Shown piece after piece: positions 455 through 64,000 of a stretch of DNA of 64,000 nucleotides (the first letter of the stretch is position 1; each line of letters starts with the position of its first letter). Location of the stretch: contig CM075780.1 of the NCBI GenBank assembly GCA_037974665.1, positions 55,283,594-55,347,593 on the forward strand, in the 5' to 3' direction. The notes beneath the pieces were generated by a model, which saw only the letters and a list, made by a program, of their open reading frames with translations, searched no databases and had not been told where the DNA came from. The position numbers and the translations under genes were made by a program. The DNA comes from Ehretia macrophylla. Lineage: Eukaryota; Streptophyta; Magnoliopsida; Boraginales; Ehretiaceae.

Positions 455-830
455 GGTCAAAATTGTCATGATTGAGACCCACAAGAGATTTGGTTCATTT
501 AGAAATTTTGAACCAAGCTTGGCAAGCATCGCCTCATTTACCAGCAATTATAGGGGCGAAGACCAAGTCCCCCAACTAATTTAGGACATCACAACTTTTC
601 CCATCCAACTCAATACATATTTCTTTTCTCCACGAAGAGCCCCAAATAAAGTTGCGTTGGAGTTTATCGATTTCCTGACAGGTTTGAATAGGAATAGCTG
701 TTGTATTCATCGTATAGACATGCAAGGCAGCAATAACGGACTTGGCAAGCGTAATTCTTCCCGCAAAAGATAACATATTAATCTTTCCACCCTGCAAGTG
801 TTGCCTGAGCTTTAGCAACAACGAACTTGG
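455..830 (-). pseudogene. LINE reverse transcriptase C-terminal remnant
   Basis: The minus-strand translation from about 821 carries LSFAGRITLAKSVIAALHVY followed by IPIQTCQEIDKLQRNFIWG. This is the conserved stretch just after the reverse-transcriptase core in plant non-LTR (LINE) polyproteins. After about 590 the match continues in another frame (PKLVGGLGLRPYN) and then in further frames as far as about 455, where residues equivalent to the usual NEP..LWV motif can be read. At least two frameshifts and in-frame stops are needed, so this is a dead fragment of roughly 125 codons. Neither the catalytic YxDD block nor a 3' tail is present. The LINE family match is established knowledge; the exact clade is not determined. 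Confidence 0.8.
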
Positions 831-867
831 CGAAAGTGTATCTAATTATTTCACATGGATAAATCAG

Positions 868-1310
868 GACTTTTAAAACTAGTATATAAAATTATGGGTT
901 ACTCCATCTAAAACCATCTAAAACCAATTGGTTTTAGAATAGAACCTCAAGTTAACTATCATGGTATCAGAGTTGGACATTGGTCTTATATAATCCATTC
1001 ACGTGTGGCCCAATAATTTCCAAGTGTTAACTTTAGTACGTAGTTTTCGATTTTGCTACTTTTATACCACATCATTAATTAATTACACATTCGATAATTG
1101 ACTTTGGTATGCAACTCTTCCAAATTCTCTTCTTCTTCAACTATATCAATTAATTAGTCATGAGTGACAAATGAAGGCGGTATTGAAGAATCCAATTGTG
1201 CCACAAGGACAAATAAGGATTTTCAACAGCAGTATATAAAATTTTGAGTACTCCACTTAGTACTAATTAGTTTTAAGATAAAATCGCAAATTAACTATTA
1301 ATTCTAACGT
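868..1310. repeat. Two diverged copies of a ~90-bp motif
   Basis: Positions 868-972 and 1218-1310 are related: both run from an AGTATATAAAAT word through ACTCCA and a GGTTTTA/AGTTTTA word to TTAACTAT. The first copy is followed by ATGGTATCAGAG, which resembles the tRNA-Met primer-binding word found just inside plant LTRs, but no LTR pair is visible. Identity unknown; probably debris of an LTR element. Confidence 0.35.
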
Positions 1311-1334
1311 AACATCCACACATTCTCTAGACGG

Positions 1335-1790
1335 ATCCAACAAAATAAACATCTTTGATAAAATGTACTACAACACCTTGTCATGAATATGGCTAGTGAT
1401 AAAGTGCACTACAACACCTTGTCATGAATATGGCTAGTTTCTTGTCTATAAAAAGAGTAAAACAATATAAGTTTAAGGGCGATTCTTGGTATAGATCGAT
1501 TGTGATGAGAAAAGCATTGATCCACCTATTTATCTTTACATTAATCATACATTTATCATGCATCTTTCTTATCATTTTAATATGTACTAATATCATTCTT
1601 CTCCAATACTCTTTACAATATCTCTTTAAGAATTCGATCATATACTTTTTTGAAGTCAATAAACACTATGTGTTGGAATTTTTTTCATTTTCTCGATATT
1701 GCTCCATTAGTCTTAATTCTTAGTAAAAAAGTAGCTTCTATTATTGATATACTAGGTATGGAACCAAACTAACTCTTTGAAGTATTTGTA
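1335..1790 (-). pseudogene. LINE reverse transcriptase remnant (fingers/palm part)
   Basis: Read on the minus strand from about 1780, three frames together give the landmarks of a plant LINE reverse transcriptase: a FGSIPSISIIEATFLL stretch (cognate of the usual FGFMPGRSTMEAIF), then RLMEQYREN, then a DFKKVYDR-like stretch, then ITIDLYQESPLNLY (cognate of the GLHQGS.LSPYLF block), and finally residues near HIHDKV. It belongs to a different part of the protein, and probably a different element, from the fragment at 455-830. Several frameshifts and stops make it non-functional. The YADD catalytic motif should follow but the similarity ends near 1335. Confidence 0.75.
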
Positions 1791-1873
1791 TTCTTTCTTA
1801 ATCTTATTTTGATCATTTTTTTTATAATTGCATAATACACCTCATTTATTTAATTTCTTGGTAATTGACACAG

Positions 1874-1975
1874 TATTTTTATTTTTAATTTTTTATTCCC
1901 ACTCCCATGAGAATCGAATGTTGGTCTCCTAACTACCAAGGGGAGTAGCCCACCACTATGCTACTCTTGAATCTC
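1874..1975 (-). mobile_element. tRNA-derived SINE (putative)
   Basis: On the minus strand an RNA polymerase III A-box-like word TAGCATAGTGGTG (1951-1964) is followed about 30 bp later by a B-box-like CATTCGATTC (1911-1920) and an A/T-rich tail ending near 1874. That arrangement and spacing is typical of plant tRNA-derived SINEs. No target duplication was confirmed. Confidence 0.5.
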
Positions 1976-2188
1976 TGATAATTGACGTAGTTTTGATGCC
2001 ACTTATCCTTTTCTTTTGTACATGCATCAAATGTCTTCTTACTCGTTAGAATTACATTGAAAGGCCTTTTGCGCTAAGTTATATCATTCTCACCTATCTA
2101 CCTCCAAACCTTATTCACACTAGACTACATGAATGAATAAATAGGGATGATAGGTATATGGTTTAAGCCCAGTTATAAAATCAATTAA

Positions 2189-2582
2189 GGCTCTGTTTGG
2201 CCTAGCTTCTAGACAGTCAAAAGTGTTTCCTATGAATTTAGAAACTGAACTAATTTGTTTGACCCATTTTTAAAAGTGTTTTTAGGTAAAAGTTGAAGCT
2301 AAAAAAAGCTAAAAATTGAGAAGCTCCATATTGGAGCTTTTCAAAAAAGACTTTTGCGAAACTGTTTGATATAATGCTGGAAGCTGTTTTTTTTTTCCCT
2401 CAAATATACCCATCCATATTTTTAAAGTCCGATATTACCCTCAAAATTTTTAAAAGTTCAACATTGTGTAACACAGGCCAAACAATTAATGGTTTTTGTT
2501 CAACAACACTTCTTACAAAAGCTCTACTCTAAAAGCTCTACAACTCAAAAGTTGAAATTTCATAGCTAGGCCAAACAAAGCC
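2189..2582. mobile_element. Tourist-type (PIF/Harbinger) MITE
   Basis: Terminal inverted repeats GGCTCTGTTTGGCCTAGCT at the left and, on the opposite strand, GGCTTTGTTTGGCCTAGCT at the right, flanked by a 3-bp TAA duplication (2186-2188 and 2583-2585). Length 394 bp with no coding capacity. TIR sequence and TAA target site are those of PIF/Harbinger MITEs. It sits inside the hAT-like fragment. A related copy lies at 6580-6929. Confidence 0.8.
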
Positions 2583-2701
2583 TAAGGCATCCAATAGGGT
2601 TCGATTTTCATAACAGTATGAGAATTAATAAGATAGGTTTTGGTAATAGACTTTAATTAAGCCTAAATCCAATTGTTAATTTATTAAAAAAATAAGTATA
2701 T

Positions 2702-2702
2702 A

Positions 2703-2736
<34 letters not shown>
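2702..2736. repeat. (TA)n microsatellite
   Basis: Uninterrupted TA dinucleotides; part of the hAT-like repeat, whose other copies also carry TA tracts. Confidence 0.9.
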
Positions 2737-2739
<3 letters not shown>

Positions 2740-2741
<2 letters not shown>

Positions 2742-2947
2742 GTCATATGATATTTATTTGAGGTACCTGGTGTTGATGTTGTAGAGTTAGTAACTTTATT
2801 TGTGATTATTTAAATTTTAGTGAACTGGAGTGGGAATTTGCAAGTCTATAATATCAACATGAGTTATCTCAAACAAATATCATATGGTGGGCATTTGCAT
2901 GTCTATAACATCAACCCAAGTTACCTCAAACAAATATCATATGACTT
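2740..2947. repeat. Foldback inverted repeat (MITE-like)
   Basis: The left arm begins AAGTCATATGATATTTATTT and the right arm ends with its near-exact complement at 2947; the pairing extends about 45 bp through a GATGTTGTAGAG-like block. A second, shorter copy of the right arm is at about 2848-2887. The 208-bp structure would fold into a long hairpin. No clear target duplication was seen, so the superfamily is unknown. Confidence 0.6.
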
Positions 2948-3539
2948 CTTTTTTATATAAAAAATAAGAAATTGTATGACTTCTTGGAGCAAAAATCTAA
3001 TGGCTTCATTTTTTTTTTGTCCAACTTCTATATCGTTTTCTCGAGACTTTAAAGACCATTAGTTTTTCACACTAGTCACTTTGTGTATTTTTGGTTGAGC
3101 CTACAATTAAAAGCAATAAATATCATTTTCTCAAGACTTTAAAGATCATTGGTTGACACTAAACCACTTGCCATAAAAGGTGGTCATGTAATATTTCTTG
3201 GAGCACAAAAAATGTATGAGTTTGTAAGCTAAATATGACTCATATTTGTTTTTCTAATTAAACATGGTAGTTTAGATTGTGGCATTTAATATTTTCTAAC
3301 TATGGTTGGAAAGCTAATTTAGTAAGATTAATGTAGTCCGTAGATGATATTAATAGAGAAGAGTATTGTGTAGAATTATAGAGAATGAAATTGTAGAGGA
3401 GCTAAGTCCATGAAATTTATCTTGGATTACAACCATTCACTATGATGTCTAGATGGCAACATGTACACATGTTTTGATTAACACTGAAATGTATATTGAA
3501 ATTCAAGTGGACTTCTATCAAACTTAGACCTAATTCAAT
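2948..3539. other. Intergenic AT-rich DNA
   Basis: No gene recognised. A short pair of related words (ATTTTCTCAAGACTTTAAAG near 3124 and a similar stretch near 3035) suggests a degraded repeat. Confidence 0.4.
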
Positions 3540-3844
3540 AACTAAGTACAAAGCAAAGATATATTGGCAACCATTTGAAAAGTCACCTTAGTTAAGTTTA
3601 CTACAACTTCATGAAATTTTCTTTCATGTATGGGTAGGTCACTTATTAGTAAATAACTCTTTTCATTTAAATAAGTTATATACATAGTTTACTAGAAGAA
3701 TGAATCACTAGTTGGTGATGGTGATGTTGAAACGACCTCAAGTTCAATGCCCGCGACAGTGGTAGAAGGACCCTAAGCTTGGTGGCTATGGCAATGCTAA
3801 AAAGACCTTGAGCTTGGAAAATTTCATGGCAATGGAGAAGTAGA

Positions 3845-3955
3845 TTAGGCAAACGTATGCCATGGACATGAAAGTGCTGCCTCAAGCTTAACGAATTTCA
3901 TGGCAATGGAGATGTAGATGAGGAAAACTATGCCTACTTCTATTGCATGAGCCAT
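3845..3955 (-). pseudogene. Short secreted-peptide-like frame, copy A
   Basis: A 36-codon minus-strand frame starts at an ATG in good plant context (AAAAATGGCT) and begins with a hydrophobic stretch (VGIVFLIYISIAMKFV) like a signal peptide. It ends at a TAA where copy B has TCA and continues into SSPSPSP. Downstream, another frame contains a TSPSPTSDS stretch reminiscent of arabinogalactan peptides. Each copy lacks something: copy A the read-through, copy B the start. The function is unknown; a decayed small secreted-protein gene is a guess. Confidence 0.3.
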
Positions 3956-23099: not shown

Positions 23100-24190
23100 T
23101 GGATATGGGAGCTTGGCCATCGTGGGCTACAGTGCTCGCAGGCTACGACGCCGGTAGGCTGGTCTTTATAGAACTTTTGCACAGTTGCATATGAGCGTTT
23201 GGTTGGTCCACGTTGGACTTTACGTAGTTGTTGGCGACCGTTGGTTGGTTAGTCCTCTTAAGACTTCTATGTAGCCACGAGGGGTTATGTGGGTTAGTCC
23301 ACTTAGGACTTTTACGTAGTCGCAAGGGACTCCCTAGGCTAGTATGCTTAGGACTTCTATGTAGTTTTCAGGGACTACATCTTATACATTGACCCTCATA
23401 GGACTTCTATGTAGTCGTCAAAGACTACATCTTGTAGGTTAGTCCACTTAGGACTCACATGCATGGTCACAAAGGACCGTAGATTAGTCCAAAGATGTAG
23501 TTTGGTCGCTACGGACTCCTACCCTAGTAGTTTGTCCATAAGGACTTCGAATTAGTAGTTCGGTCGTTACGAGCCTCTACCGTAGTAGTTTGTCCGTGAG
23601 GACTTTGAATTAGTAGTTCAGCTGCTACGGGTCTCTACCGTAGTAGTTGGTCCATGATGACTTTTATATGGTCGCAAATGACCATAGTTGGTCCACATAA
23701 GACTCTATATGGCTGCAAGGGACCATAGGTTATTCCTTATAGGACTGTATGTGATCGCGAGAGACCGTAGGTTGGTCCATGTAGGACTTTAAGTGGTTGT
23801 ATGGGACTGTAGGTTGGTCCAAATAGGACTCTACATGGCCAATTGAGGCCATAGGCTAGTCCGCGTAGGACTCGATGTAACCGTGTGAGGCCGTAAGCTA
23901 GTCCACGTATGACTCAATATGGCTGCGTGATGCCGTAAGCTAGTTTGCGTAGGACTCAATATGGCCGCGTGAGGCAATGGGTCAGTCTGTGTAGAACTCC
24001 ATATGGCTGCGTGAGGTCGTGGGTTAGTCCGTGTAGGACTCTATATGGCTGTGTGAGGCAGTGGATTAGTCCATGTAGGACTCTATATGGCTGCGTGAGG
24101 CCGTAGGTCAGTCCGTGTAGGACTCTATATGGCTGCGTAAGGCCGTAGGTCAGTCCGTGTAGAACTTTATACGGCCCCATAGGGAAAAAC
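23100..24190 (-). repeat. 42-bp tandem repeat array in gypsy 3' region
   Basis: On the plus strand the unit reads approximately GTAGGACTCTATATGGCTGC followed by GTGAGGCCGTAGGTCAGTCC. The best units run from about 23850 to 24175; older, more diverged units (TAGGACTTCTATGTAGTCG type) extend back towards 23100. The minus-strand translation of the good part repeats a 14-residue PYRVLHGLTYGLTQ unit, which proves the 42-bp period; it has no recognised function and is probably not translated. Confidence 0.85.
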
Positions 24191-24420: not shown

Positions 24421-25481
24421 CCAATCTCATTCTCTAAAGGTCCTGATCTTAACGTTCTTATTGAAATGTCGAGCGACCTTCTGATGGTAGGCTGCAATTC
24501 AAACTAGGACCTGTTCCCTCTTCTCATCAATAGTATCGAGTAGAAGGCTCAGCTCCTGATTGTTCTGCTCCTCGGCCGCTTGCTGAACCCGAAGAGTAGG
24601 AAGCCCAACCTCCGCTGGAATAACCGCCTTAGTGTCGTAGACCAGTGAAAATGAAGTTTTTCCAATTGAGGACCTTACTATAGTCTGGTAGAACCATAGC
24701 ATAGCTGGAAGCTCGTCAGCCCATCTCCCTTTTGAACTTTCTAATCTCTTCTTGAGAGTTGAGATTTTCGCCTTGTTGGACGATTCAGCTTGACCGTTGG
24801 CCTGCGGGTAGCGCGGAGTAGAAAAGGTTAGTTGGATCTTCCATTCCTTACATAAGTCTCTGAAGTCGCAGCTAATGAATTGAGAGCCATTATTTGTCAT
24901 GATCTCCTTTGGCACTCCAAACCTACATATGATGTTTCTCCACACAAAGTTCTTCACATCTCTGTCTCTGACTTGGTGATAAGCCTCGGCCTCAATCCAT
25001 TTGGAAAAATAGTCAGTGACGGCGAGCATGTAAACGCGCTGCCCAGGAGCGGTCGGGAGTTTACCCACGATGTCCATTCCCCACTTCATGAATGGCCACG
25101 GGGCAGAAATGGTAGCAAGCGACTCGGGAGACTGATGTGATACTTGCGCGAACCTCGCGCGAACCTCTGGCAATTGTCACATTTTTTCATATATTTGATG
25201 GCATTGCTGCGCATTGTAGGCCAGTAGTACCCTGCTGTGAGTGCCCTGTTTGTAAGACTGCGCGCTCTGGAATGATTGTCGCACTGTCCCTCATGTAGCT
25301 CGGCTAAAACGTAGTCTGATTCCAATTTGTCAACGCATCGAAGGTAAGGTCCTGTGTATGACTTCCGATAGAGTCTACCTTCTATGAGGCAGAATCTAGC
25401 TGCTTTCGCCCAAAGCCTGTGTGCCTCACTGCGATCCTCTGACAAAATGTCATTTTGAATATACTGAATGATGGGGGTCAT
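24421..25481 (-). pseudogene. Gypsy integrase, inactivated
   Basis: The N-terminal zinc-binding HHCC domain is visible (ELHEG....NHS, then CDNCQRFA near 25150-25290), followed by the catalytic core with WGMDIVGKLP and PQANGQAES (the D and E of the DDE triad) and the KWIEAEA block. Two lesions are clear. An 11-bp perfect tandem duplication (25146-25167) shifts the frame between the zinc domain and the core. The second catalytic Asp, in the usual TDNG motif, is Asn (codon 24892-24894, motif TNNGSQF). Integrase would insert the element cDNA; this copy cannot. Confidence 0.9.
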
Positions 25482-25523
25482 TCAGGAGGGCGCCTCCCCC
25501 AAGCTCGCCACCTCTTTCGAGTG

Positions 25524-26000
25524 TCATTTCCATACTGCAGGCCACTGTAAATAAACAATGGGTATTACCTTTGGGGCTGAAACTTGCGTAGCTGCCCCTA
25601 AAGCTGCTAGGGCATCGGCGTGGTTATTATCCTCTCTACTCAATTGTTTAATCTCAAACTCCTCGAAGGCCGCCTGTAGCTCTTTGACAACCGCCAAGTA
25701 GGCTGCCATTTTGTTACCCTTTGCCTGGTAGGCTCCGAGGATCTAGTTGACAACCAACTGCGAGTCCTTGCTGACAGTTATCCTTTTGACGTTCATCTCC
25801 TTGGCCAAGGTAAGCCCTGTAATTAGGGCTTCATATTCTGCCTCGTTGTTGTTACCTTGAAACCACATTTAATTGACCGCTCGATGACATCCCTTTCGAG
25901 GGACTGAAGTACCAACCCAAGGCCGGTACCCTTAATATTACTCACTCCGTCCATGTTCAAGGTCCACTTTTCACATTCTGCCGAGATGCTATGGCATAAC
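25524..26000 (-). pseudogene. Second RNase H-like domain of the gypsy element
   Basis: Begins WTLNMDGVSNIKGTGLGLVL (catalytic Asp in the NMDG block), shifts frame near 25850, continues NNEAEYEALITGL, then the KGNKMAAYLAVVKELQAAFE stretch and the NNHADALAALG block, which carries the last acidic residue. This is the archaeal-type RNase H-like module that Tat-lineage elements carry between the ordinary RNase H and integrase. Frameshift and stops make it non-functional. Confidence 0.85.
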
Positions 26001-26490
26001 AATTCTTTCTCTGCTAACAGGTGGATGCCTAGTGTGAAATCAGCTACAAAGTCAGCCAAAGCCTGCGACTTGATTGCTGTCCGTGACTGGTAGGAGATTT
26101 CGTACTCGCTGAGCTCGATCGCCCACTTTGAAAGTCGGCCGGAGAGTTCTGGCTTGTGTAACACTGACTTGAGAGGAAAAGTAGTTAATACCACTATCTG
26201 GTGGCACTGGAAATACGGCCTTAGCTTACGACCTGTAGTAACGAGGGCCAACGCTAATTTCTCGAGCTGACTGTACCTAGTCTCGGTATCGAGTAGAGCC
26301 CTGCTGGTATAGTAGAATGGGTGTTGTTTCCTTCCCTTTTCTCGTACTAAGACAGCACTGATGGCGGTCTTCGAGACAGCCAAGTAGATCAGGAGAATCT
26401 CTCCATCTTTCGGCTTGGAGAACAATGGTGGGCTGGTAAGGTAGGCCTTGAGTTACTGAAGCGCTTCTTCGCAAGCGGGCGTCCATGAGA
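26001..26490 (-). pseudogene. Gypsy RNase H domain
   Basis: A readable frame contains the LYLAVS-like start (here IYLAVSKTAISAVLVRE), HPFYYTSRALLDTETRYSQL, LEKLALALV and the closing LADFVADFT, the usual landmarks of the Ty3/gypsy RNase H. It lies directly after the RT connection region, where a stop precedes LKAYLTSPPLFSKPKDGE. Part of the polyprotein in intact elements. Confidence 0.85.
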
Positions 26491-27460
26491 AATCTTTATT
26501 TTTTCGTAGGGTATCGAAGAAGGCATGACACTTCTTTGAGGATCTGGAAATAAATCGGGTTAAAGTCGCCAGTTTCCCAGTAAGCTTCTAAACTTCTTTG
26601 ATACATGGTAGGAGACGGAATGTCGAGGATGAACCTGATCTGGCCTGGGTGGGCTTCGATCCCTCACTGCGTGACTAGGTACCCTAGGAATTTCCCAGAG
26701 ATAACACCGAAGGAGCACTTTGTGGGGTTCAACTTCATGTTGTACTTTCTTAGAACCTCGAATGCTTGGTGAATGTGCTCGAGGTGGTGCTCGCAACTAG
26801 AAACTTCACCAACATGTCGTCGATATAGACCTCTATTGTTTCGCCCAACAGTTCAGCGAACATTTTGTTAACCAAGGGCTGGTAGGTTGCACCCGCGTTC
26901 TTCAAGCCAAAGGGTATAACCTTGTAGCAATATATTCCGCGTTCAGTGATGAATGCTGTCTTCTCTTGGTCATCAGGGTGCATGAGAATTTGGTTATAGC
27001 CCGAGAAAACGTCCATGAAACTAAGAAGCTCATGTCCAGCTGTGGCGCCTACTATTGTATCAATGTGTGGAAGAGGAAATGAGTCTTTTGGGCAGGCTTT
27101 GTTTAGGTTTGTGAAATCGATGCAGACTCTCCACTTTTCATTCGTTTTCCTCACAACCACCACGTTCGCTAGCCAATCAGGGTAAAGGACCTCACGGACG
27201 GAACCGATGTCGATCAGTTTTTAGACTTCTTTATTGATGATGCGATTTTTTTCCGCTGTAAACTTCTTCCATTTCTGTTTCACAGGAAGGTAGGCTGGGT
27301 CGACTTGAAGTTTGTGGACCATGACCGTCGGGTCGATTCCAGTCATGTCTACATAGGACCAAGTGAAGCAGTCCTGGTGGCGACTAATGAAGTCTATCAA
27401 CTCATCACGCAGCTCTGGCTTTAACTTCGAACCAATCTGGACAATACGATCTAGACAATC
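26491..27460 (-). pseudogene. Gypsy reverse transcriptase
   Basis: The frame at 26750-27163 starts VVVRKTNEKWRVCIDFTNLN and contains NKACPKDSFPLP, LLSFMDVFSGYNQI (first catalytic Asp), KNAGATYQ and YIDDMLVK (YxDD active site). Directly after YIDD the frame shifts, and the following NMKLNPTKCSFGV..GKFLGYLV stretch is in another frame with stops. The region upstream to about 27460 holds the N-terminal fingers in broken frames. The motifs are classic Tat-type. Confidence 0.9.
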
Positions 27461-28000
27461 TAGGTTGATTTATACCTCGTCGAGCTCCTCCAAGGTAGGC
27501 TGGTCAGGGTAACTTCGTGTCGTAGTCTGCTCTACCTGGTACAAAATGTCATAGCTAGCCCTTCTCAAGGCGGAGCGGTAGCACTTGTGAGAGTCCTTTT
27601 GTTGTCCTCTTATTTCTCTTATTCCCCATATTGTCGGGAATTTGACTAGTTGATGGTAGGTTAATGGGACGGCTTTCATCTCATGGATCCACAGACGCCT
27701 CAATATGATATTATAGGGCGACGGGTAGTCTATTACCAAAAAGCGAGTGTGATGGTTAACACCCTCGGCATAAGTAGGGAGGACGATCTCTCTGATAGTA
27801 CTCTTGTGTTCTCCGCTGAACTCGATTAAGGTAGTTGAACGACGAGTGACGCACGACTCATCTATTCCCATTTCCTGAAGGGCATCTAGCATAAGGACGT
27901 TGGTTGAGCTGCCATTGTCGACTAAAATTCGCCTGACCAAGCAATTGGCCACCATCAATGTTATAACCAGGGCGTTGTGGTGCGGGTCAGCCAAGTAGGC
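27461..28000 (-). pseudogene. Gypsy aspartic protease region
   Basis: A 174-codon frame contains RRILVDNGSSTNVLMLDAL, the retropepsin active-site segment in the form seen in Tat elements (DNGSS rather than DTGSS), then the IEFSGEH and YNIILRRLWIHEMKAVPLTYH landmarks (cognate of YN.I.GR..L). It would cleave the polyprotein. The frame is open here but isolated from gag and RT by stops. Confidence 0.8.
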
Positions 28001-29250
28001 TGCCTTGTCATTAGAGAACGTGACGGTCCACCCAGGCTCAACTTCCCTTGGTGGTAAAGGCTTTGAATCGAAACCAACTGCTTGACGGACGTACCTCCTT
28101 GTCGCTGAGTGACTAATGCTGCTGACCTCCGATCCACCAGTGATGCAATTTACTATTTGCTCGTGGCGTGGCGGCTCAAGTGTGGTGACCTCTCGAACCT
28201 TTTGCTTTCCTTCTCATTGGGCTATTGTCTGTTTTTCTTTGTCTGTCAAGAACTGCGTGAGGTGTCCCTTTTTCAACAACTCTGCGACCTCCTTTCTAAG
28301 TCCAATGCATTCCTCCGTTGTATGTCCTTGGTCGTCGTGGAAATCGCACCACTTAGTTTTATCTCTCCGGTCAGCGGGATACCTTATCTTTTCTGGCCAC
28401 TTGACAGTGTTGCCCATCCTTTTTAAAGTATGGATTAACTCAGTTCGCGCTACATTGAGGTCATAATCGGGCACTCTCTAAGTGTTTTAATTGCGATCCC
28501 GCCTCTGTTCAAGTGGTCTTCTATCATCGCGTGATCGTTTGTGCCTTCGTTCCTCTGTGGGGTAAGGTTCGCGCCTTTTATGATGCAAGTCCGATACTCA
28601 GTTCCTCTTTGGGGTAAGGTCCTACCAAGCTGGAGCTGAAGTCCTTGCACATGCAGGCTTCCCTTGAATCTCGCGGGATGGCAACTGTAAACTTCTTCTG
28701 CTTGTACTACATTATGTAGTCGTCGGGATCGGTAGTCCCGTCATAGGGCCTCATTGTTTGGAAACCTAAACTTGGCCGGCATCTCCACCATGGCGATGGT
28801 GTCAACAAATGGGGAGTCGGCAAAGTTGTTCGCCGCACTCTTCTTAATAGGGACAGGTACACCGGGGATCTTTTGGATGAGGGACTCAATCTCTTCGAAT
28901 CGGTGAAAGATATCCTAATTCAACCCTTCTACATCTGCTGATTGAGTCTGGAGTCGCTCAGTGGAGACGGTAGTTTGGAAGTAAACTCTGCTCCCGGGTG
29001 TCGGTTGAAGTGTGGATCCAAGGAATTATATGGGCGCCACGGTCTGACCGTGTGCAATCGACTTTCCGTGATTGGAAAGAGTCGTCGTCGTTGTGAGGAT
29101 CTTGACCCTCTCTTCTAGCTCAATGTTTTCCTGGCGAACGACGGGGTTTTCTGCCTCGAGTTCCTTCAGCTTATCTTCATAAGCAGCCATTTTGGTCGTT
29201 AAGGCCTCCATCTGCGCTTGGAGGTCATTCTAGGTATTGGATTTGGCCAT
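28001..29250 (-). pseudogene. Gypsy gag, truncated
   Basis: The first ATG (29248-29250) is followed by a TAG at codon seven. In the same frame comes a coiled-coil-like segment (MAAYEDKLKELEAENPVVRQ and on). Further frames give PYDGTTDPDDYI and MCKDFSSSLVGP, conserved in plant Tat gag, but the rest of the central gag domain is missing, apparently deleted near 28640. The end has KWCDFHDDQGHTTEECIGLR, the C-x2-H-type zinc-binding motif of this gag family. Intact gags of the group are larger, so this one is shortened. Confidence 0.85.
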
Positions 29251-49995: not shown

Positions 49996-51706
49996 CACTA
50001 CAAGAAAACATCCCTGAGGCTACAAAAAATGGCTACGAAATCCAGCTTTGTAGCCAATTTGCAAAGTCTGGCGACGAAATAAAATCTTTCGTCACCATTT
50101 TGTAGCCAAAATGCGCGAAAAAATTTTCCTCCAAAAAAAATTACATTTGGTCACCATATGGTCGCCACACAGCGACAAAATGGCGGCCAAAATCGATAAT
50201 TATTATTTAATGGCAACTTTGTCGCCAATGGGCAACCGTATGACGACCATTATCATTACTTTTTTTTCATTACGCAGTTACAAACAAATCAATGAGAAAA
50301 AATAACTATAAAATAAAAAAGCGAAACATTTGTCGCCATGTGGTCACCCTCTCGCCACCCCCGGGCGACCAAAGTTGTTAATATTTCTTTAAAATAAATT
50401 TTAAAAAAACAAAATGAAAAAAATAAATAAAATAACGTTTTGTCGCCCTTCGATCGCCATATGGGTGACCTAAAAGCGACCAATATTATTTATTTCTTTT
50501 AAAAAAATTACAAGAAAATCAAAATAATTATTAAATAAATAATTAAAAAGTTGGTCACCCTTTGGTCGCCCCTTGGCGACAACCTTGCTACAAAATTCAT
50601 TTAATTTTTTATAAGAAATTATAAACCATCATTGCTATTGGCGACTAACCAATTCTATCTTTTACTTGAGATTTCGTAGCCCCGTGGTAGCTATTGGCCA
50701 CTAAATGGCGACACAAAGTAAATATGTTGTAGATCTATGGTCGCCAATGGCTAACAAGGGGCTACGAACCTCCATATTTATAAGAAAGTAGATTGATTTA
50801 GAACCAAAGAATTTATAATAACAAATATATTATAAGTTTGTACTACATTTATTTTTCTTTGATTGAAAATATATTTTAAGGTCTATTTAATGGTATGGGT
50901 TGTGTATTTAAGATATAAGGCCATAAAATTGAATTAATGATTAATAGTTTTTATTATAACAAAAGTTAACAAAAGTAGGATGAATTAAATATAAAGTCTA
51001 AAACAATGAAGATTTTATCATTGTCATTAGTTTTTACACATCAATCAAATTCTAACATTTACATTAATATCAAGGAATTAATTTGAATTGAAGAATGACA
51101 ATAATGAAAGGGAATATATAACTTAGAAGCGTAATTTAAAACAAAAAAGTTGAATATATAAAACCAATTCTATCTTTTGCATGAGAGTTCGTTGCCATGA
51201 GGTCGTCATTGGCCACCTAATAGCAACAAAAAAAAAATATTTTGTCGCTCTTTGGTAGCCAATGACCACCAAGGGGATACAAACCTCCATATTCATAAAA
51301 AAATAGATTGATTTAAAATAAAAGAATTTATAATAATAAATATATTATAAGTTTGTGCTAAATCTATTTTCTTTTGATTGAAAATATATTTTAAGGTTTA
51401 TTTAATGGAATGGGTTGTGTATTTAAGATATAAGACCATAAAATTGAATTAATGATTAATAATTTTTACTATAACAAAGTAGGATCAATTAAATCTAGTC
51501 TAAAACAATGAAGATTTTATCATTGTCATTAGTTTTTGCACATCAATCAAATTCTAACTTTCACATTAGTATCGAGGAATTAATCGGAATTGAAGAATGA
51601 CAATAATGAAAGGGAATATATAGCTTAGAAGCGTAATTTAAAATAAAAAAGTTGATTATATAAAACCAAATTTATCTTTTGCATAAGAGTTCGTCGCCCC
51701 ATGGTG
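49996..51706 (+). mobile_element. CACTA-type transposon end
   Basis: Begins CACTACAAGAAAA, the terminal repeat of plant CACTA (En/Spm) elements, followed by a subterminal region dense in GTCGCC/GGCGAC and GTAGCC/GGCTAC words (50020-50760), as expected for transposase-binding repeats. Tandem ~510-bp units follow. No matching opposite terminus and no transposase are found; similarity stops at 51706, so it is truncated. Confidence 0.7.
50647..51706 (+). repeat. ~510-bp tandem repeats in the first CACTA end
   Basis: Units 50647-51161 and 51162-51663 plus a partial third (51664-51706), each starting AACCAATTCTATCTTTT and carrying one block of GTAGCC/GTCGCC words followed by a conserved AT-rich body. 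Confidence 0.9.
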
Positions 51707-56839: not shown

Positions 56840-57619
56840 CATTAGAAAATAGTAGGGGAAGGGGGCAATACTAATCTTAATACAAGGCAAATTCCAACAA
56901 CTTTCCTATTTTTTTCTTTACATGTATAGAGTTTGGAGTTGTCTCCTTAGCTTTAGAGACCCTCTATTTCAGTTTTATTCCAATAGCCTCAGCACTTTTA
57001 GTCTATCTTTATTTTACGGACTTCCTATTTCAGTTTCGCTCCAACAATCCTTATTTTAAGGACTCCTTTGTTTTATTCAAATATATCTCTATTCTGATTA
57101 AACATACCATTTTACTTTTTTATTTAGATTTTTCATTTGCTAACGATTATGTTTTATTTTAATTATTAACACAATTTTCTAATAAAAATTTAAATTAATA
57201 TGATTTTTTCTTAATCGAAAAGACAGAATCAACTCAGCTAGAAATTCGTCATCAAACTTGAAGTCCCGTAAAGTAAATTTGTGTAGTATGAATTATTTAG
57301 TGAGTCCATCTATAAAACAAAAAGTTAAAACTAGAATAATTTAATTAACAAAAAAAAAAATAAATTAAGAAAAATTATAATTTAAACTAATATGACTTAA
57401 ACATAATTATAAAATTATAACAAGTTAAAAATTAAAAAAAAAATTATCATAGTATAAATAAGAAAAAATTTAGGTTATAAATATAATTTAATACTTTTAA
57501 CCCTAATTTTATAAACCTATACCACCTAACACCCTACCTCATTGGGGTGGGGGCAAGAAAAGGACAAAAAAAACATTAGCCCAAAAATCATTATCAGCCA
57601 TTTTCTTAAACCGTTCTTT
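56840..57619. other. AT-rich intergenic DNA
   Basis: No gene recognised; related CTCCTTAGCTTTAGAGACC / TTTACGGACTTCC stretches (56940-57070) look like a degraded short repeat. Confidence 0.4.
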
Positions 57620-58235
57620 TACTACAAGAAAACAGCGCTAGAGTGACGGAATTTTTTCGTAGTAAATTGGTTATTGCCAGGCTACGGATTTGCTACAGAA
57701 AAAAATTTCGTAGCCCAACAGTAGCCAACTTCGCCCCCGTTGAAATGGCGACAAAAATTTGCTACGGATTAGCTACGAAATATAATTTTAATTAATTAAA
57801 AAAATGAAAAATAATATTCCGTAGCCTAGCGGTGACAAATTTGCTATGGATTAGCTACAGATTATTTAATTAATTCGGTAAAAAAATTCATAAAAACGTC
57901 TGTAGCCATGCAGTGGCCAAATAGCCACGGATTGGCTACTGATAATAATTTTAATTAATAAAAAAATAAAAAATAATATTTTGTAGCCTAACTGTGGCAA
58001 ATTTACTATGGACTAGCTACATATTATTTAATTAATTCGGCAAAAAAATTCATAAAAAATTCAGTAGCCATGTAGTGGCCAATAGCCACAGATTGGCTAC
58101 GGACTATATATTATTCAAAAAATATTTTAAAAAAATAAATATAGATATTTTAATTAAATAGGAAAAAATAAAATAACAAAGTCCGTAGCCTATCTGTAGT
58201 CTCTAGCTACGGATGGGTTACAAAATTTGACTCTT

Positions 58236-61200
58236 CTGTAGCCCAGCAATAGCCAATTGGCTACTGCTAGGCTACGGACTTCAATAAAATATTGAGATTT
58301 ATCATTTTTAATTTCAATTATAGAATTTTGATTGCACCTACAATGTAGTAAACTTCACTTGAGTTACAAATTTTTGAAATAAAAATAAACTTGGTCCATA
58401 TTTTATTAACATGCGTCCTTTTATAGAGAAATCAATTGTCGTTTAAATCAAACTTTTCATGTTTTTACTTAACATTGCGTTAATATTAATAAACGTTCAA
58501 TCTAGGAGTCAAAAGACTATCACATTATATCTAAACTTCATAAACAAGAAAAATATGAAGATATTAACACTTTTTAATACGTTGTTCCTATCTATTAACA
58601 AGTAAGAATACATATTATTAGTTGTCCGTAACCCTAACAATAGAATTGGCTACTGTTAGGCTACGGACTTCAACAAAAAATTGAAGTTTGTGGTTTTTAA
58701 TTTAAATTATGGAATTTTGATTTGCACCTACAACGTAGTAAACTTCACTTGAGTTGTAAAATTTTCAAATAAAAATAAATTTGGTCCGTATTTCATTAAT
58801 GTACGTACTTTTATAGAAAAATCTCATAGGAAATCAATTATCGTTTAAATCGAACTTATTATTTTTTCACTGAACATTGCGTTAATGTTAATAAACGTTC
58901 AATCTAGGAGTCAGGAAACTTTCACATTGTGTCTATACTTCATAAACAATAAAAATATAAAAATATTAACACGTTTTAATACGTTGTTCGTGTCTATTAA
59001 CAAGTTAGAAAATATATTATTAGTTTTTCGTAGCCCAACAATAGCCAATTGGCTGCTGTTAGGCTACAGAATTCAACAAAAACCGAGGTTTATCGTTTTT
59101 AATTTGAATTATGGAATTTTGATTGCTCGTATAACGTAGTAAACTTCACTTGAGTTACAAAATTTTCAAATAAAAATAAACTTGGTCCATATTTCATTAA
59201 CGTGCGTACTTTTATAGAAAAATCTCATAGGAAATCAATTGTCGTTTAAATCGAACTTATTATGTTTTCACTTAACATTGCGTTAATGTTTATAAACGTT
59301 CAATCTAGAAGTCGAAAAACTCTCACATTATGTTTAAACTTCATAAACAAGAAAAATATGAAGATATTAACACGTTTTAATACGTTGTTCTTATCTATTA
59401 ACAAGTTAGAATACATATCATTAGTTGTCCGTAGCCCAGCAATAGTCAATTGGCTACTGCTCGGCTACATATTTCAACTATTTCGTAGCCCAGCAATAGC
59501 CAATTGGCTACTGCTAGGCTACGAACTTCAACAAAAAATTGAGATTCGTCGTTTTTAATTTGAATTATAGAATTTTGACTGCACATACAACGTAGTAAAC
59601 TTCACTTGAGTTGCAAATTTTTCAAATAAAAATAAACTTGTTAACGTGTGTACTTTTATAGAAAAATATCATAAGAAATCAATAGTCGTTTAAATTGAAC
59701 TTATTCTATTCTCATTTAACATTGCGATAATGTTCAATTTAGGACTCGAAAAACTCTCACATTATGTCTAAACTTCATAAACAAGAAAAATATGGAGATA
59801 TTAACACATTTTAATACGTTGTTTGTACCTATTAACAAGTTAAAATACATATTATTAGTTATCCGTAGCCCAGAGTAGCCAAGTGGCTACTGCTAGGCTG
59901 CGGAATTCAACTTTTCCGTAGCCTAGCAGTAGCAATTGGCTACTGCTAGGCTACGGACTTCAACAAAAATTGAGGTTCGTCGTTTTTAATTTGAATTATA
60001 GAATTTTAATTACACCTACAATGTAGTAAATTTCACTTGAGTTGCAAAATTTTCAAATAAAAATAAACTTGTTAACGTGCGTACTTTTATAGAAAAATGT
60101 CATAGGAAATAAATTGTCGTTTAAATCGAACTTATTATGTTTTCACTTAACATTGCGTTAATGTTAATAAACGTTCAATCTAGGATTCGGAAAACTCTCA
60201 CATTTTGTCTAAACTTCATAAACAAGAAAAATATGAAGATATTAACACGTTTTAATACGTTGTTTCTATCTATTAACATGTTCGAATACATATTATTAGT
60301 TGTCCGTAGCCCAGCAGTAGCCTAGGCTACGGAATTCAACTTTTCTGTAGCCCAACAGTAGCCAAATTGGCTACTGCTAGGCTACGGACTTCAACAAAAA
60401 ATTGAGGTTGTTCGTTTTTAATTTGAATTATGTAATTTTGATTGCACCTACAACGTAGTAAACTTCACTTGAGTTGCAAATTTTTCAAATAAAAATAAAC
60501 CTGTTAACGCGCGTACTCTTATAGAGAAATTTCATAGGAAATCAATAGCCGTTTAAATTGAACTTATTATGTTTTCACTTAACATTGCGTTAATGTTAAT
60601 AAACGTTCAATCTAAGAGTCGGAAAACTCTCACATTGTGTCTATACTTTATAAACAAGAAAAATATGAAGATATTAACAAGTTTTAATACATTGTTCGTA
60701 CCTATTAACAAATTAGAAAATATATTATTAGTTATCCATAGCCCAGCAGTAGCCAATTGGCTACTGCTAGGCTACGGAATTCAAATTTTCCGTAGCCCAG
60801 CAGTAGCCAATTTGCTATTGCTAAGCTACGGACTTCAACAAAAAATCGAGCTTCGTCATTTTTAATTTGAATTATGAAATTTTGATTGCACCTACAACAT
60901 AACTTCACTTGAGTTGCAAAGTTGTCAAATAAAAATAAACTTGGTCCGTATTTCATTAACGTGCGTACTTTTATAGAAAAATCTCATAGGAAATCAATTG
61001 TCGTTTAAATCGAACTTATCATGTTTCACTTAATATTGCGTTAATGTTAATAAATGTTCAATCTAGGAGTCGAAAAATTGTGACATCGTGTTGAAACTTC
61101 ATAAAGAAGAAAAATATAAAGATATTAACACGTTTTAATACGTTGTTCGTACATATTAACGAGTTAGAATATATATTATTAATTGTTTAGCCCATCCGTA

Positions 61201-61290
61201 GTCCCTAGCTACAGATGGGCTATGGATTTCATCACGTCCGTAGCCCAGCAGTAGCCAATTGGCTACTGTTGGGCTACGGATCTCAACAAA
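58236..61290. repeat. Seven-unit subterminal array with palindromes
   Basis: Units of about 400-450 bp, anchored on the CGTTCAATCTAGGAGTC-like word at 58494, 58896, 59297, 59731, 60172, 60604 and 61055. Each contains one or two near-perfect palindromes of about 40 bp: CCGTAGCCCAGCAGTAGCC then AATT then the complement ending GGCTACGG (best at 58236-58277, 59485-59523, 60738-60777, 61238-61280). Units from 59297 onward have gained a second palindrome, which adds about 35-45 bp to the spacing. Confidence 0.9.
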
Positions 61291-61531
61291 AAACTGAAAT
61301 TTATATTTTTAATGCGTGGCTACGGATGGGCTACGGACGCATAGATGTCCGTAGCCCATCCATAGCCAAGTCATTAAACAAAAAAAAACTTGGGATATAT
61401 AAAAGATATATACCATAATTTGTCAAGCATAGATGTCTATAATAACTAACATAAGAACCATAAGTCGGTACAAGCATACATAAATGGTAAATCAGACATC
61501 TAGTTTCAAATGCAATTTTAATTATAAAAAA

Positions 61532-63003
61532 CTAACAGCAAGTTGCCCAAATAAAACTATTGTCTCGGTCCACAACCGCGACGTCCACGACTCCGATTGT
61601 CGATAAACCCAGGGGCTTGTCCAACTCCCTCACCACGAAAGTCATCAGCCATGAGTAGAAGTCGACCTTGTATTCAAAATATTGTCGATCTTCTGTTCTA
61701 CGTTCTTCCAGACTCTGAAATTGAGTTTCAAAGTATTGATGATCTTCTGCTCTATGTTCTTCCAAAGTCTGAAATTGAGCTTTAAAATATTGACGATCTG
61801 CCGCTCTACGCTCTTCCATTGTTTGAAGTTGAGTCTACAAATGGTTGAGAGTTCTATCATTGTTGCCCATAGAAGTAGAGATATCATTTAGTTTTTCCAA
61901 AATTAGATCAAATGACGAACTAGAAACACAACTAGAACTAACACCTCTCCTCCTTTCTTGCTCATCTATTTGTGACACTCTCTCTGCATAAATATACTCC
62001 TCCGAAATATCGGTTTCCATAGGCGTTTCACGATATAAGTTTTCTTCCATCTCAACATCACCAATATAACTCAAATTCTGAACAAAGGTTCTATTCTTGG
62101 TAGTATTAGTTCTAATGAATGATTTGGTTTCCTTTGGTAGGCTATTAAATTCTTCTTGGTTTATATAACGATCTTGATACCAATAAGCTTGTTGCTTATT
62201 TAGAGATAGCATATTAAGATACCAAGAAGGGTTGAATTTCTTACTTTCAACGCCATCAAATGAAACCCCGAAGTATTCAAAAATTCGCGTAAGGGCTACT
62301 CCATATGGCAAGGATTTGTTGTTCTTGGCCACATAAATCATGTGATGAACAATCATATACGGTAGGTTCACTTGTCTATCACTAACCAACAAATATACAA
62401 TATAAGCATATCTTTGAAGTGTCATTTCATCATTAAAATTTCTATGTACAAGACAAAAGCCTACAAAGTTTACCCAAATTTTCTTTAGTATGGGCAACTC
62501 TCTCTTATCTTGCATTTCCTCTATGAGCAATTCTATCATACCTTTCCGCCCAGAAAAATCTCGAACAATTATCTTTGCTTCGTGCTTCATTCTACTTTCT
62601 AGCCAACCAGTGGTGTCATAAGCTTTTACCTCTTCGTCTCTCATATTAAAGATTGTAGCTATAATATCTGGGGTTAACTCAATATTAACACCTCTAACTC
62701 TAGTTTTCACAACAACAATTTCATCACTTTCCATATTAGCATAAAATTCATGAATTAAAAGTGGATAAACAAGACAATGAATATATAGGAAGTCATACCA
62801 ACCTTGTTGTTGCATGAATTCAGAAATTGTAGTACCTTGTATGTCCTCATCTATCAAACACTTTCCATACAATATTGGCTTGACAACCTCGTTGTTTGCA
62901 TGTGTGGGAGGAGGATCCCTATCCGGACCTGGAAGCCTTGTAGAGGCTCTTGTATTGATTTTCTTAGAAAGATTTTTTTTCCATTTTTTCTTGTATCTAC
63001 CAT
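61532..63003 (-). pseudogene. Putative plant transposon protein (Transposase_32-like), broken
   Basis: The minus-strand frame from about 62990 to 61835 encodes a HEFYANM..DEIVVVKTRVRGV block, an ELTPDIIATIFNM block, then an LQRYAYIVYLLVSDRQVNL region, the arrangement of the putative plant transposon protein family (probably Pfam Transposase_32, from memory). A TAG at 61835-61837 stops it, yet the same frame continues for about 100 codons with three copies of a ~17-residue coiled-coil-like repeat (LEERRAEDRQYFE type). At the other end, the only well-placed ATG (63001-63003) is one base out of frame across an eight-T run (62973-62980); the first in-frame ATG is near 62816. Function unknown; probably an element accessory protein. 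Confidence 0.65.
61711..61830 (-). repeat. ~51-bp coding repeats (coiled-coil-like)
   Basis: Three tandem copies of a unit coding FQ(T/S)LEE(R/H)R(A/T)(A/E)D(R/H)QYFE, in frame with the transposon protein after its stop codon. Confidence 0.8.
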
Positions 63004-63035
63004 GATAAAATATAGAGATTTTGAGCTTTTGGGAA

Positions 63036-63400
63036 GTGGGTAACGTGACTATGGAACAAAACTTGAGATTTAATGGCTAAATTTTGAGTTTAAGACAACT
63101 TTACCTATATTTTGGCTTAGGGCTTGAAAAAATCGGGGTTTGGAAAAAATATTTGTAGATTTGGAGGTTTTTCCAAGTGGGTAATGTGATTATGGAAGAA
63201 ATTTTGAGGTTTAATGGCTAGATTTTGAGAATTTGAGAGAGATTTTTTGAGTTTTTCTTGCAATGGGGTTGAAGAAATTGGTATTTTGAAAAACTATTTG
63301 GAGATTTTGATGTTTTGTGGAATAGGTAATGTGATTATGGAAGAAATTTTGAGATTTAATGGTTAGTTTTTAATGATTTTAGAGATATTGTGAGAGAGTT
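63036..63400. repeat. ~143-bp tandem repeats upstream of the transposon-protein frame
   Basis: Units start at 63036, 63177 and 63322 with GGTAA(C/T)GTGA(C/T)TATGGAA and continue TTGAG(A/G)TTTAATGG. They lie in the 5' region of the minus-strand frame. Confidence 0.85.
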
Positions 63401-63517
63401 TAGAAAAGAAAGGTGAAGAGATGTGAAGTTGGGGAAGAAGATGGGATTTGGGGGTCGGTTTGCTGATTTTTATCAACACAAATCAAAAAAAAAAATTATA
63501 ATAATTAAAATTTCAAG

Positions 63518-63548
63518 CAGGTCACGGCCGGCCGGCCGGCCGTACCTG
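63518..63548. repeat. GGCC-rich palindrome
   Basis: CAGGT-C-ACGGCCGGCC...GGCCGGCCGT-ACCTG: a 31-bp inverted repeat with a single unpaired C, in otherwise AT-rich DNA. Confidence 0.95.
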
Positions 63549-63624
63549 TTACTTAAATTTTTTTATTTATTTGTGCTGAATGTTTAAAACATTTTCCCCA
63601 AATTGACTTCACTCTTTTTTTCTC

Positions 63625-64000
63625 TTACAAAAACCTATCTCTCTTAACTCTACCACTATCACTACCACCACCACCACCACCACCACTATCACCATCAACA
63701 CCATTATCACCATCAACACGACTACCATCACTATCAAGACCACCACTACCACCAACAAAGGCTCCATCAGCACCACAAGGTCCTCCATCACCACCATGTA
63801 GGGCATCATCACAATCATCACCATCTAGGGCACCATCACCATCACCACCACCACCACGACCATCACCACCACCACTATCATCATCAACACTACTACCATC
63901 ACTATCAAGAGTACCACCAAGGGTACTACCACCACTACCAACAAAGGCTCCATCACCACCACAAGGTCCTTCATCACCACCATGTAGGCCACCATTACCA
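63625..64000 (-). other. Gly/Asp-coding minisatellite, partial open frame
   Basis: CAC/ACC-rich repeat with a longer ~175-bp unit (CTACCATCACTATCAAGA at 63722 and 63893; ACAAAGGCTCCATCA follows in each). One minus-strand frame is open from the window edge to TAA at 63625-63627 and reads Gly, Asp and Ser almost throughout, ending RVKRDRFL. It could be the C-terminus of a Gly-rich protein, but simple-repeat composition alone can keep such a frame open. Confidence 0.4.

Follow-up and report, generated by a model that had tools for sequence, protein, structure and literature searches.

Knowledge of how CACTA transposons regulate themselves through TnpA-binding subterminal repeats comes mainly from a small number of genetically active elements. 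In En/Spm the repeated motifs sit within a few hundred base pairs, to our knowledge without a kilobase-long array of units. The En/Spm motifs of maize are 12 bp long and are recognised by a TnpA-type protein (PMC2613891), and in an account of a lettuce CACTA element the usual subterminal units measure 10–20 bp (PMC8195511). The soybean element Tgmt*, which is 20.5 kb long and has coding sequence for tnp2 and for a presumed DNA-binding product, is described as having subterminal repeats that pair into palindromes, 12 at the right end (732 bp) and 2 at the left end (159 bp) (PMC2613891), and stem-loop-forming subterminal repeats are described for TgmR* (PMC4219821). The Tpn1 family, CACTA elements of Ipomoea nil, has subterminal tandem repeats of 122 bp on the 5' side and 104 bp on the 3' side (PMC5105172). 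Among Jozin-type CACTA elements of Chenopodium, one in C. quinoa contains a 5,550-bp satDNA array of 171-bp monomers (PMC8978399; PMC7320549).

The window analysed here, a stretch of 64,000 nucleotides from Ehretia macrophylla (C17:55283594–55347593), contains a tandem array near the end of a CACTA element that resembles each of these systems in part. With Tgmt* it shares a palindromic CACTA end, tnp2 and a long element; unlike the present array, Tgmt* has 17-bp motifs of another sequence in under 0.8 kb, and 400-bp units with a long body are not among the features given in its description (PMC2613891). Long-period subterminal tandems are common to the array and to Tpn1, whose period is only about a quarter as long, whose repeats lie on both sides and whose description, as far as available, does not mention palindromes (PMC5105172). 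The quinoa element likewise has a tandem array of several kilobases inside a CACTA element, but that array is presented as captured and lies near the 3' end, and an end module within the monomers is not mentioned in the available account (PMC8978399). Repeated subterminal motifs, there recognised by a TnpA-type protein, are also found in En/Spm, although these have only 12 bp (PMC2613891). Palindromic ends and long-period tandems are each known, and their combination over 3 kb was not met in the literature searched. Units of 400–500 bp that each carry an end-module palindrome are not described in the open-access literature searched, a body of text with few subscription papers, and a search of it for GGCTACGG together with CACTA and transposon gave only subjects that were unrelated by title and start of abstract. 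The array is thus a transposon part of known kind in an unusually long form, and probably represents a bank of binding sites for the transposon's own protein.

The tandem array was located by TRF at 58238–61297, with periods of 401 and 432 bp, and the combination of TRF, a body profile and palindrome counts delimits seven units on the plus strand at 58235–61280. Each unit consists of an AT-rich body of about 357 bp and one or two 44-bp near-palindromes, which bears out the initial annotation, where seven tandem units with palindromes of about 40 bp had been described. The profile search with the body returned seven plus-strand bodies of 336–359 bp, at 58278–58623 (about 11 bp shorter, like 16 of 19 first units), 58667–59025, 59072–59426, 59525–59860, 59957–60301, 60388–60733 and 60832–61184, with start-to-start spacings of 389, 405, 453, 432, 431 and 444 bp. 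The main-type palindrome, CCGTAGCCCAGCAGTAGCCAATTGGCTACTGCTAGGCTACGG (family consensus TCCGTAGCCCAGCAGTAGCCAATTGGCTACTGCTAGGCTACGGA), is present 12 times in the window array, once clearly truncated: at 58235–58278, 58624–58666, 59026–59071, 59427–59524 (two), 59861–59956 (two), 60302–60387 (two, the first truncated), 60734–60831 (two) and 61237–61280. A second palindrome type (CCGTAGCCCATC...GATGGGCTACGG), which reads CCGTAGCC-ATC..GAT-GGCTACGG in other copies, flanks the array on both edges, at 58183–58222 on the outer edge (read by eye and decayed here) and at 61188–61222 on the inner edge. Instead of the "about 11" hairpins first counted, there are thus up to 14 palindromes, 12 of the main and 2 of the edge type. 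The exact 18-mer core of the palindrome was found 867 times in the 1.58-Gb genome and not once for the reversed control; the array palindromes are therefore not a product of chance. Junctions preceding units 4–7 contain two palindromes, and those preceding units 1–3 contain one of the main type. The earlier statement that later units have acquired a second palindrome is therefore accurate for the window copy; elsewhere doubling is found early as well as late, and two loci (L031 and L032) have no doubled junctions at all. Doubling of the palindrome thus floats between positions and is not a general feature of late units.

The CACTA element housing the array is 13,235 bp long. It occupies 57620–64000 of the window on the plus strand, and its right part extends beyond the right edge of the window to C17:55354447. 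The left terminus, TACTACAAGAAAAC (57620–57633, plus strand), has its first C changed to T, and one base of CACTA is changed at each of the two ends of this copy. The target site duplication (TSD) TTT precedes the left terminus at 57617–57619, and its right copy lies outside the window at C17:55354448–55354450. Six two-ended copies carry CACTACAAGAAA-type termini on both sides, as terminal inverted repeats of CACTA elements do, and all six have matching 3-bp TSDs (TTT, TGT, ATA, ATA, ATA and TAT, the last being ambiguous as it sits inside a TA run). Because two of these copies have common flanks and represent one duplicated insertion, the six copies stand for five independent insertions. The family terminus pattern had 375 matches genome-wide at up to 3 mismatches, compared with 0 for the control; the terminus of the window copy, with 4 differences, falls outside these 375. 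The left subterminal region (57620–58234, plus strand) contains 26 GTAGC words per kb and imperfect repeats of 81/162 bp. Across four elements, the density of GTAGC words was 18–26 per kb at the left end, 11.5–14 in the array, 23–30 at the right end and about 1 in the interior. The words occur in both orientations at the left end and in nearly all cases in one orientation at the right end, so that these four elements have the subterminal motif in direct and inverted orientation that characterises CACTA elements.

Within the element and adjoining the array, a minus-strand ORF at 61838–63076 matches Pfam Transposase_32 (PF20167, E 3e-18). It sits between the array and the transposase; the array is therefore at the end 5' of tnp2 without immediately adjoining it. 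Beyond the window, the plus strand of this copy encodes Transpos_assoc (E 4e-16), DUF4216 (E 5e-11) and a tnp2 fragment below the cut-off. A clear tnp2 is found in the C3 copy (Transposase_21, PF02992, E 1e-77), together with DUF4218 and DUF4216. Transposase_24 (PF03004), the family of TnpA, was matched in two ORFs, one in the window copy and one in the copy at C17:36.2 Mb, with E values of 7.9e-4 and 7.6e-5 and scores of 20.0 and 23.3 that are both below the Pfam cut-off of 28.7 bits. Directly 3' of the Transposase_32 ORF, at 61673–61841, lie three copies of a 54-bp repeat, and in the C3 copy the ORF runs on through these repeats as a repeated peptide.

The constancy of the array was examined in a less array-biased sample, for which the query consisted of the terminus and the subterminal region. 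From 41 matches that nearly spanned the query, the window's included, nine loci spread over the chromosomes were picked non-randomly and fetched at 4.6 kb each. The array was present in all nine and began about 0.6 kb from the terminus, and the numbers of near-complete units were 2, 3, 5, 5, 6, 6, at least 7, 8 and at least 10, the counts for L035 and L037 being minima as the array reaches the end of the fetched stretch. The proposed assignment of the array to a CACTA element is thereby supported, and the suggested comparison of elements with the same ends shows an array in each of the nine, with a unit number of 2 to at least 10. Of ten chains selected by array matches, nine had a recognisable left terminus, the exception being on C15. 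In the six two-ended copies, which are 6.9 to 15.2 kb long, body matches were confined to positions 648–3871, counted from the left end, with none near the right end. On C1, where core clusters were counted by eye among the matches listed, at least 8 of 18 lie close inside a terminus. Many array and terminus matches are also crowded within 1.3 Mb at C17:36.05–37.37 Mb, where at least one element has been segmentally duplicated, since two copies have identical flanks.

Arrays lacking a visible terminus do occur, and a satellite inside a CACTA element has been reported in Chenopodium (PMC8978399); both observations would suit a satellite DNA of independent origin, captured by a CACTA element. 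The longest array, the second on C8 (L019:1881–9479; C8:52391880–52399478), has about 18 units, 17 near-complete and one partial, and its left terminus was sought and not found. A 9.6-kb stretch on C1 (L038; C1:91799300–91808899) contains two runs of array units on the minus strand and no terminus was found within it; palindrome cores spread over about 17 kb at C1:91.79–91.81 Mb possibly belong to a larger, terminus-free array. Against capture, CACTA-internal sequence still follows the terminus-less C8 array, the distance from array to terminus is about equal in 9 of 9 terminus-selected loci, the palindrome arms equal the end modules of the element (see below), and first units are partly position-specific. 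A captured satellite is extremely improbable on this evidence and was rejected as the main reading. The initial annotation had itself raised the case of an independent satellite with no CACTA terminus at its edge; the nine terminus-selected loci, all with an array beside a terminus, turned out the opposite way, and the exceptions are those on C15, the second C8 array and L038.

The palindrome arm is the 22-bp end module of the family, and each palindrome consists of two copies of it placed head to head. In the window copy, the left-end modules lie at 57667–57728, the R form ("<") at element position 48 and the L form (">") at position 88. At the right end all six two-ended copies have the module at position 37, counted from the terminus, with 20–22 of 22 bases matching, and the earlier observation that the arm words are the element's own end motif therefore holds. 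At the left end it was found within the first 150 bp in 15 of 15 termini, at positions 44–103 and with best matches of 19–22 of 22, in a test that left out three termini (C3 14.52 Mb, C8 and C18); 300 mononucleotide-shuffled ends gave at best 15 of 22. The module is thus 37–103 bp distant from both termini. The two arms also differ in form: position 10 of the left arm is C in 95 of 113 palindromes, as in the inward-pointing left-end module, and the right arm resembles the right-end module in 84 of 113, which have the T form, and shows the C form in another 26. Because the second, opposite-facing module of the right end also fits T better, the difference is a tendency rather than a rule of strand.

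We consider it likely, with a probability of roughly two in three, that the array belongs intrinsically to the 5' subterminal region in a large CACTA (En/Spm-type) family and that the palindromes are, most probably, paired protein-binding sites. A unit would then be a piece of subterminal DNA with a head-to-head pair of end modules that was multiplied at one end, and unequal recombination or slippage would account for the multiplication and turnover of the units. The palindromes would serve as paired sites for a putative TnpA-like, Transposase_24-related DNA-binding product of the element. Many extra sites at the end 5' of tnp2 could affect synapsis, repression or titration of the TnpA-like protein, and by these routes perhaps transposition or expression. 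The array may have been retained because the element benefits from extra paired sites, or at least is not harmed by them.

Conservation of the palindromes was compared with that of the bodies in 133 units from 19 loci, comprising ten chains from the best array matches and the nine terminus-selected loci; units without a near-complete body were left out, so that body deletions may be undercounted. The initial annotation had proposed this comparison and had seen a difficulty for its reading in arms that diverge as fast as the body. The raw values go part of the way in that direction, with the palindrome at an identity of 0.842 and the body at 0.877. Relative to the expectation from base context (AT, CpG and other C/G), the whole palindrome did not differ significantly (0.842 versus 0.819, P=0.11), as in a first sample of 80 units in which the words were not separated (0.836 versus 0.833 expected, no difference). 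The four GTAGCC words, in contrast, were more conserved than matched body sites, at 0.869 versus 0.800 expected (P=0.0006, from resampled body sites with no tree modelled), and the palindrome spacers and ends were below expectation, at 0.783 versus 0.819. The arms as a whole therefore do not stand out from the body, and the words do. The word test was designed after the per-site values had been seen, though the words were those named beforehand. The excess for the words was +0.063 to +0.086 on leaving out any one locus and +0.035 to +0.109 in a bootstrap over loci, which covers kinship in part. Between the consensuses of the two main subfamilies there is no difference at the 24 word sites, one at the 20 remaining sites of the palindrome, and 23 along the 357 sites of the body; the absence of word differences is not significant alone, because only about 2 were expected. 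Different methylation of the words could account for part of their conservation. We infer that selection keeps the GTAGCC words and, as far as is visible, not the pairing of a hairpin.

These data bear on a neutral origin, in which the array spread by unequal exchange and element copying and the end module was merely caught in the unit. In favour of such a by-product, the unit number ranges widely, from 2 to about 18, and loci with 2 or 3 units (L036 and L030) keep intact-looking left termini. That conservation of the whole palindrome does not exceed that of the body fits as well, as does the more frequent loss of palindrome pieces: palindromes had 2.6 deletion runs per kb and bodies 1.1, and the distinct runs numbered 12 in the 44-bp palindrome and 21 in the 357-bp body. 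The higher loss is the behaviour expected of inverted repeats. The excess conservation of the GTAGCC words over matched body sites argues in the other direction, as do the presence of an array in every one of the nine terminus-selected loci and the like layout of a second CACTA family, described below. We regard a purely neutral by-product as rather unlikely, though as an alternative to be taken seriously.

Strong hairpins are predicted for the RNA, with folding z scores of -7.4 to -14.7 in four palindromic segments and of 0.4 and -0.9 in two body segments. The palindromes might accordingly be structural devices, maintained in the form of hairpins, of cruciforms or of a double-stranded RNA that either provokes silencing or evades it. 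The string of separate hairpins originally envisaged was obtained for the segment 61180–61290, which forms two; in both double junctions that were folded, the two palindromes pair together into one long nested hairpin. Pairing was tested in 113 palindromes, after 20 of 133 with more than two gaps had been left out. Double changes were slightly in excess, with 34 observed; shuffling of the arms gave an expectation of 23.7, and 34 was reached in 1.3% of 1000 shuffles. The excess over random re-pairing of positions was 6.2, which 2.1% of the pairings reach. In addition, deletions in the palindromes often cross the centre (9 of 15). At the pair 10/35, however, a C/A mismatch is the commonest state over all loci (68 of 113). 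One subfamily of five loci has C-G there in 16 of 23, which means that the palindrome can be complete and gives the earlier idea of cruciform or hairpin selection some limited support. Of the 26 compensatory double changes, 24 were C>T/G>A on both sides, the type expected of decay of methylated C, and the two others were G-C to T-A and A-T to C-G. Maintenance of a structure by covariation is not favoured: both tests gave weak signals, mostly of deamination type. A known structured RNA was rejected: cmscan against Rfam returned 20 matches with E values of at most 1, none of which attained the gathering score of the respective family. Since the sites between the words are not conserved either, a selected hairpin or cruciform is very improbable, and paired protein-binding sites fit the palindrome data better.

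Concerted homogenisation within each element is not dominant, as no more than 44 of 133 units had their nearest relative in their own locus; mean likeness of units was 0.900 within a locus and 0.875 between loci. Of the 19 first units, 16 are 333–347 bp long and 13 have another first unit as nearest relative, yet a clade of first units was not recovered, the largest nearly pure clade having 3 members. From these relationships the array appears to be old and partly position-conserved, with later gains, losses and exchanges.

A second CACTA family in the same window provides a parallel. Its broken end lies on the plus strand at 49996–51705, beginning with CACTACAAGAAAACATCC at 49996, and contains GTCGCC/GTAGCC words and two units of about 510 bp. 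The units begin at 50647, 651 bp inside the terminus, and measure 515 and about 502 bp, and the next repeat is broken near 51705; the TRF run was limited to periods up to 500, and this array is not listed there. Each unit has an inverted block, one at 50673–50768 and the other with arms at 51201–51231 and 51240–51270, and the block words are of GTAGCC/GTCGCC type, like those at the terminus of this second family. In a blastn comparison with the first family's end, the second-family stretch gave only short pieces that were AT-rich or contained the words; the best match between the two families had an E value of 1.6e-4 and the best within the first family's array 0.002. When a unit of the second family was used as the query, rows of adjacent copies about 500–530 bp apart were found on several chromosomes, for example at C2:16486151–16488448 and C8:64237321–64240779. 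A 1.14-kb piece from C2 (L039; C2:16486620–16487759) has a period of 514 bp and an inverted block in which 581–630 pairs with 637–686 (78% complementary), and the block of the preceding unit (67–172) is complementary to the next block over its whole length (75%). The terminus of the second family was seen in the window only. The second family has a like layout, with a body that shows no clear similarity to that of the first.

The like layout in two families points to selection or else to a mechanism of amplification that can recur, alternatives that can be distinguished. One may go further and regard long-period arrays of miniature end pairs as a recurrent, selected regulatory device of CACTA elements, present in at least two families with unrelated bodies, with units of 400–515 bp that each carry an inverted pair of the family's own end words (in the family studied, C10 in the left arm and mostly T10 in the right), and acting as a copy-number-sensitive sink or enhancer for a TnpA-like protein. 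In this full form the proposal is speculative and we think it improbable. With hundreds of termini and a varying number of paired sites, this genome would allow the number of sites to be compared with the age, methylation and activity of the elements. For repeat annotation, a satellite-like array of several kilobases may simply be the end of a transposon.

Two further features stand out. At L014:8982 (C3:14647481) a CACTA-like terminus, recognised by eye, is followed by GCGACGG words, perhaps representing a third family. At 23288–24175 of the window there is a degenerate array of units of about 42 bp, and the neighbouring minus-strand ORFs at 24499–28213 resemble Ty3-type gag-pol on inspection by eye.
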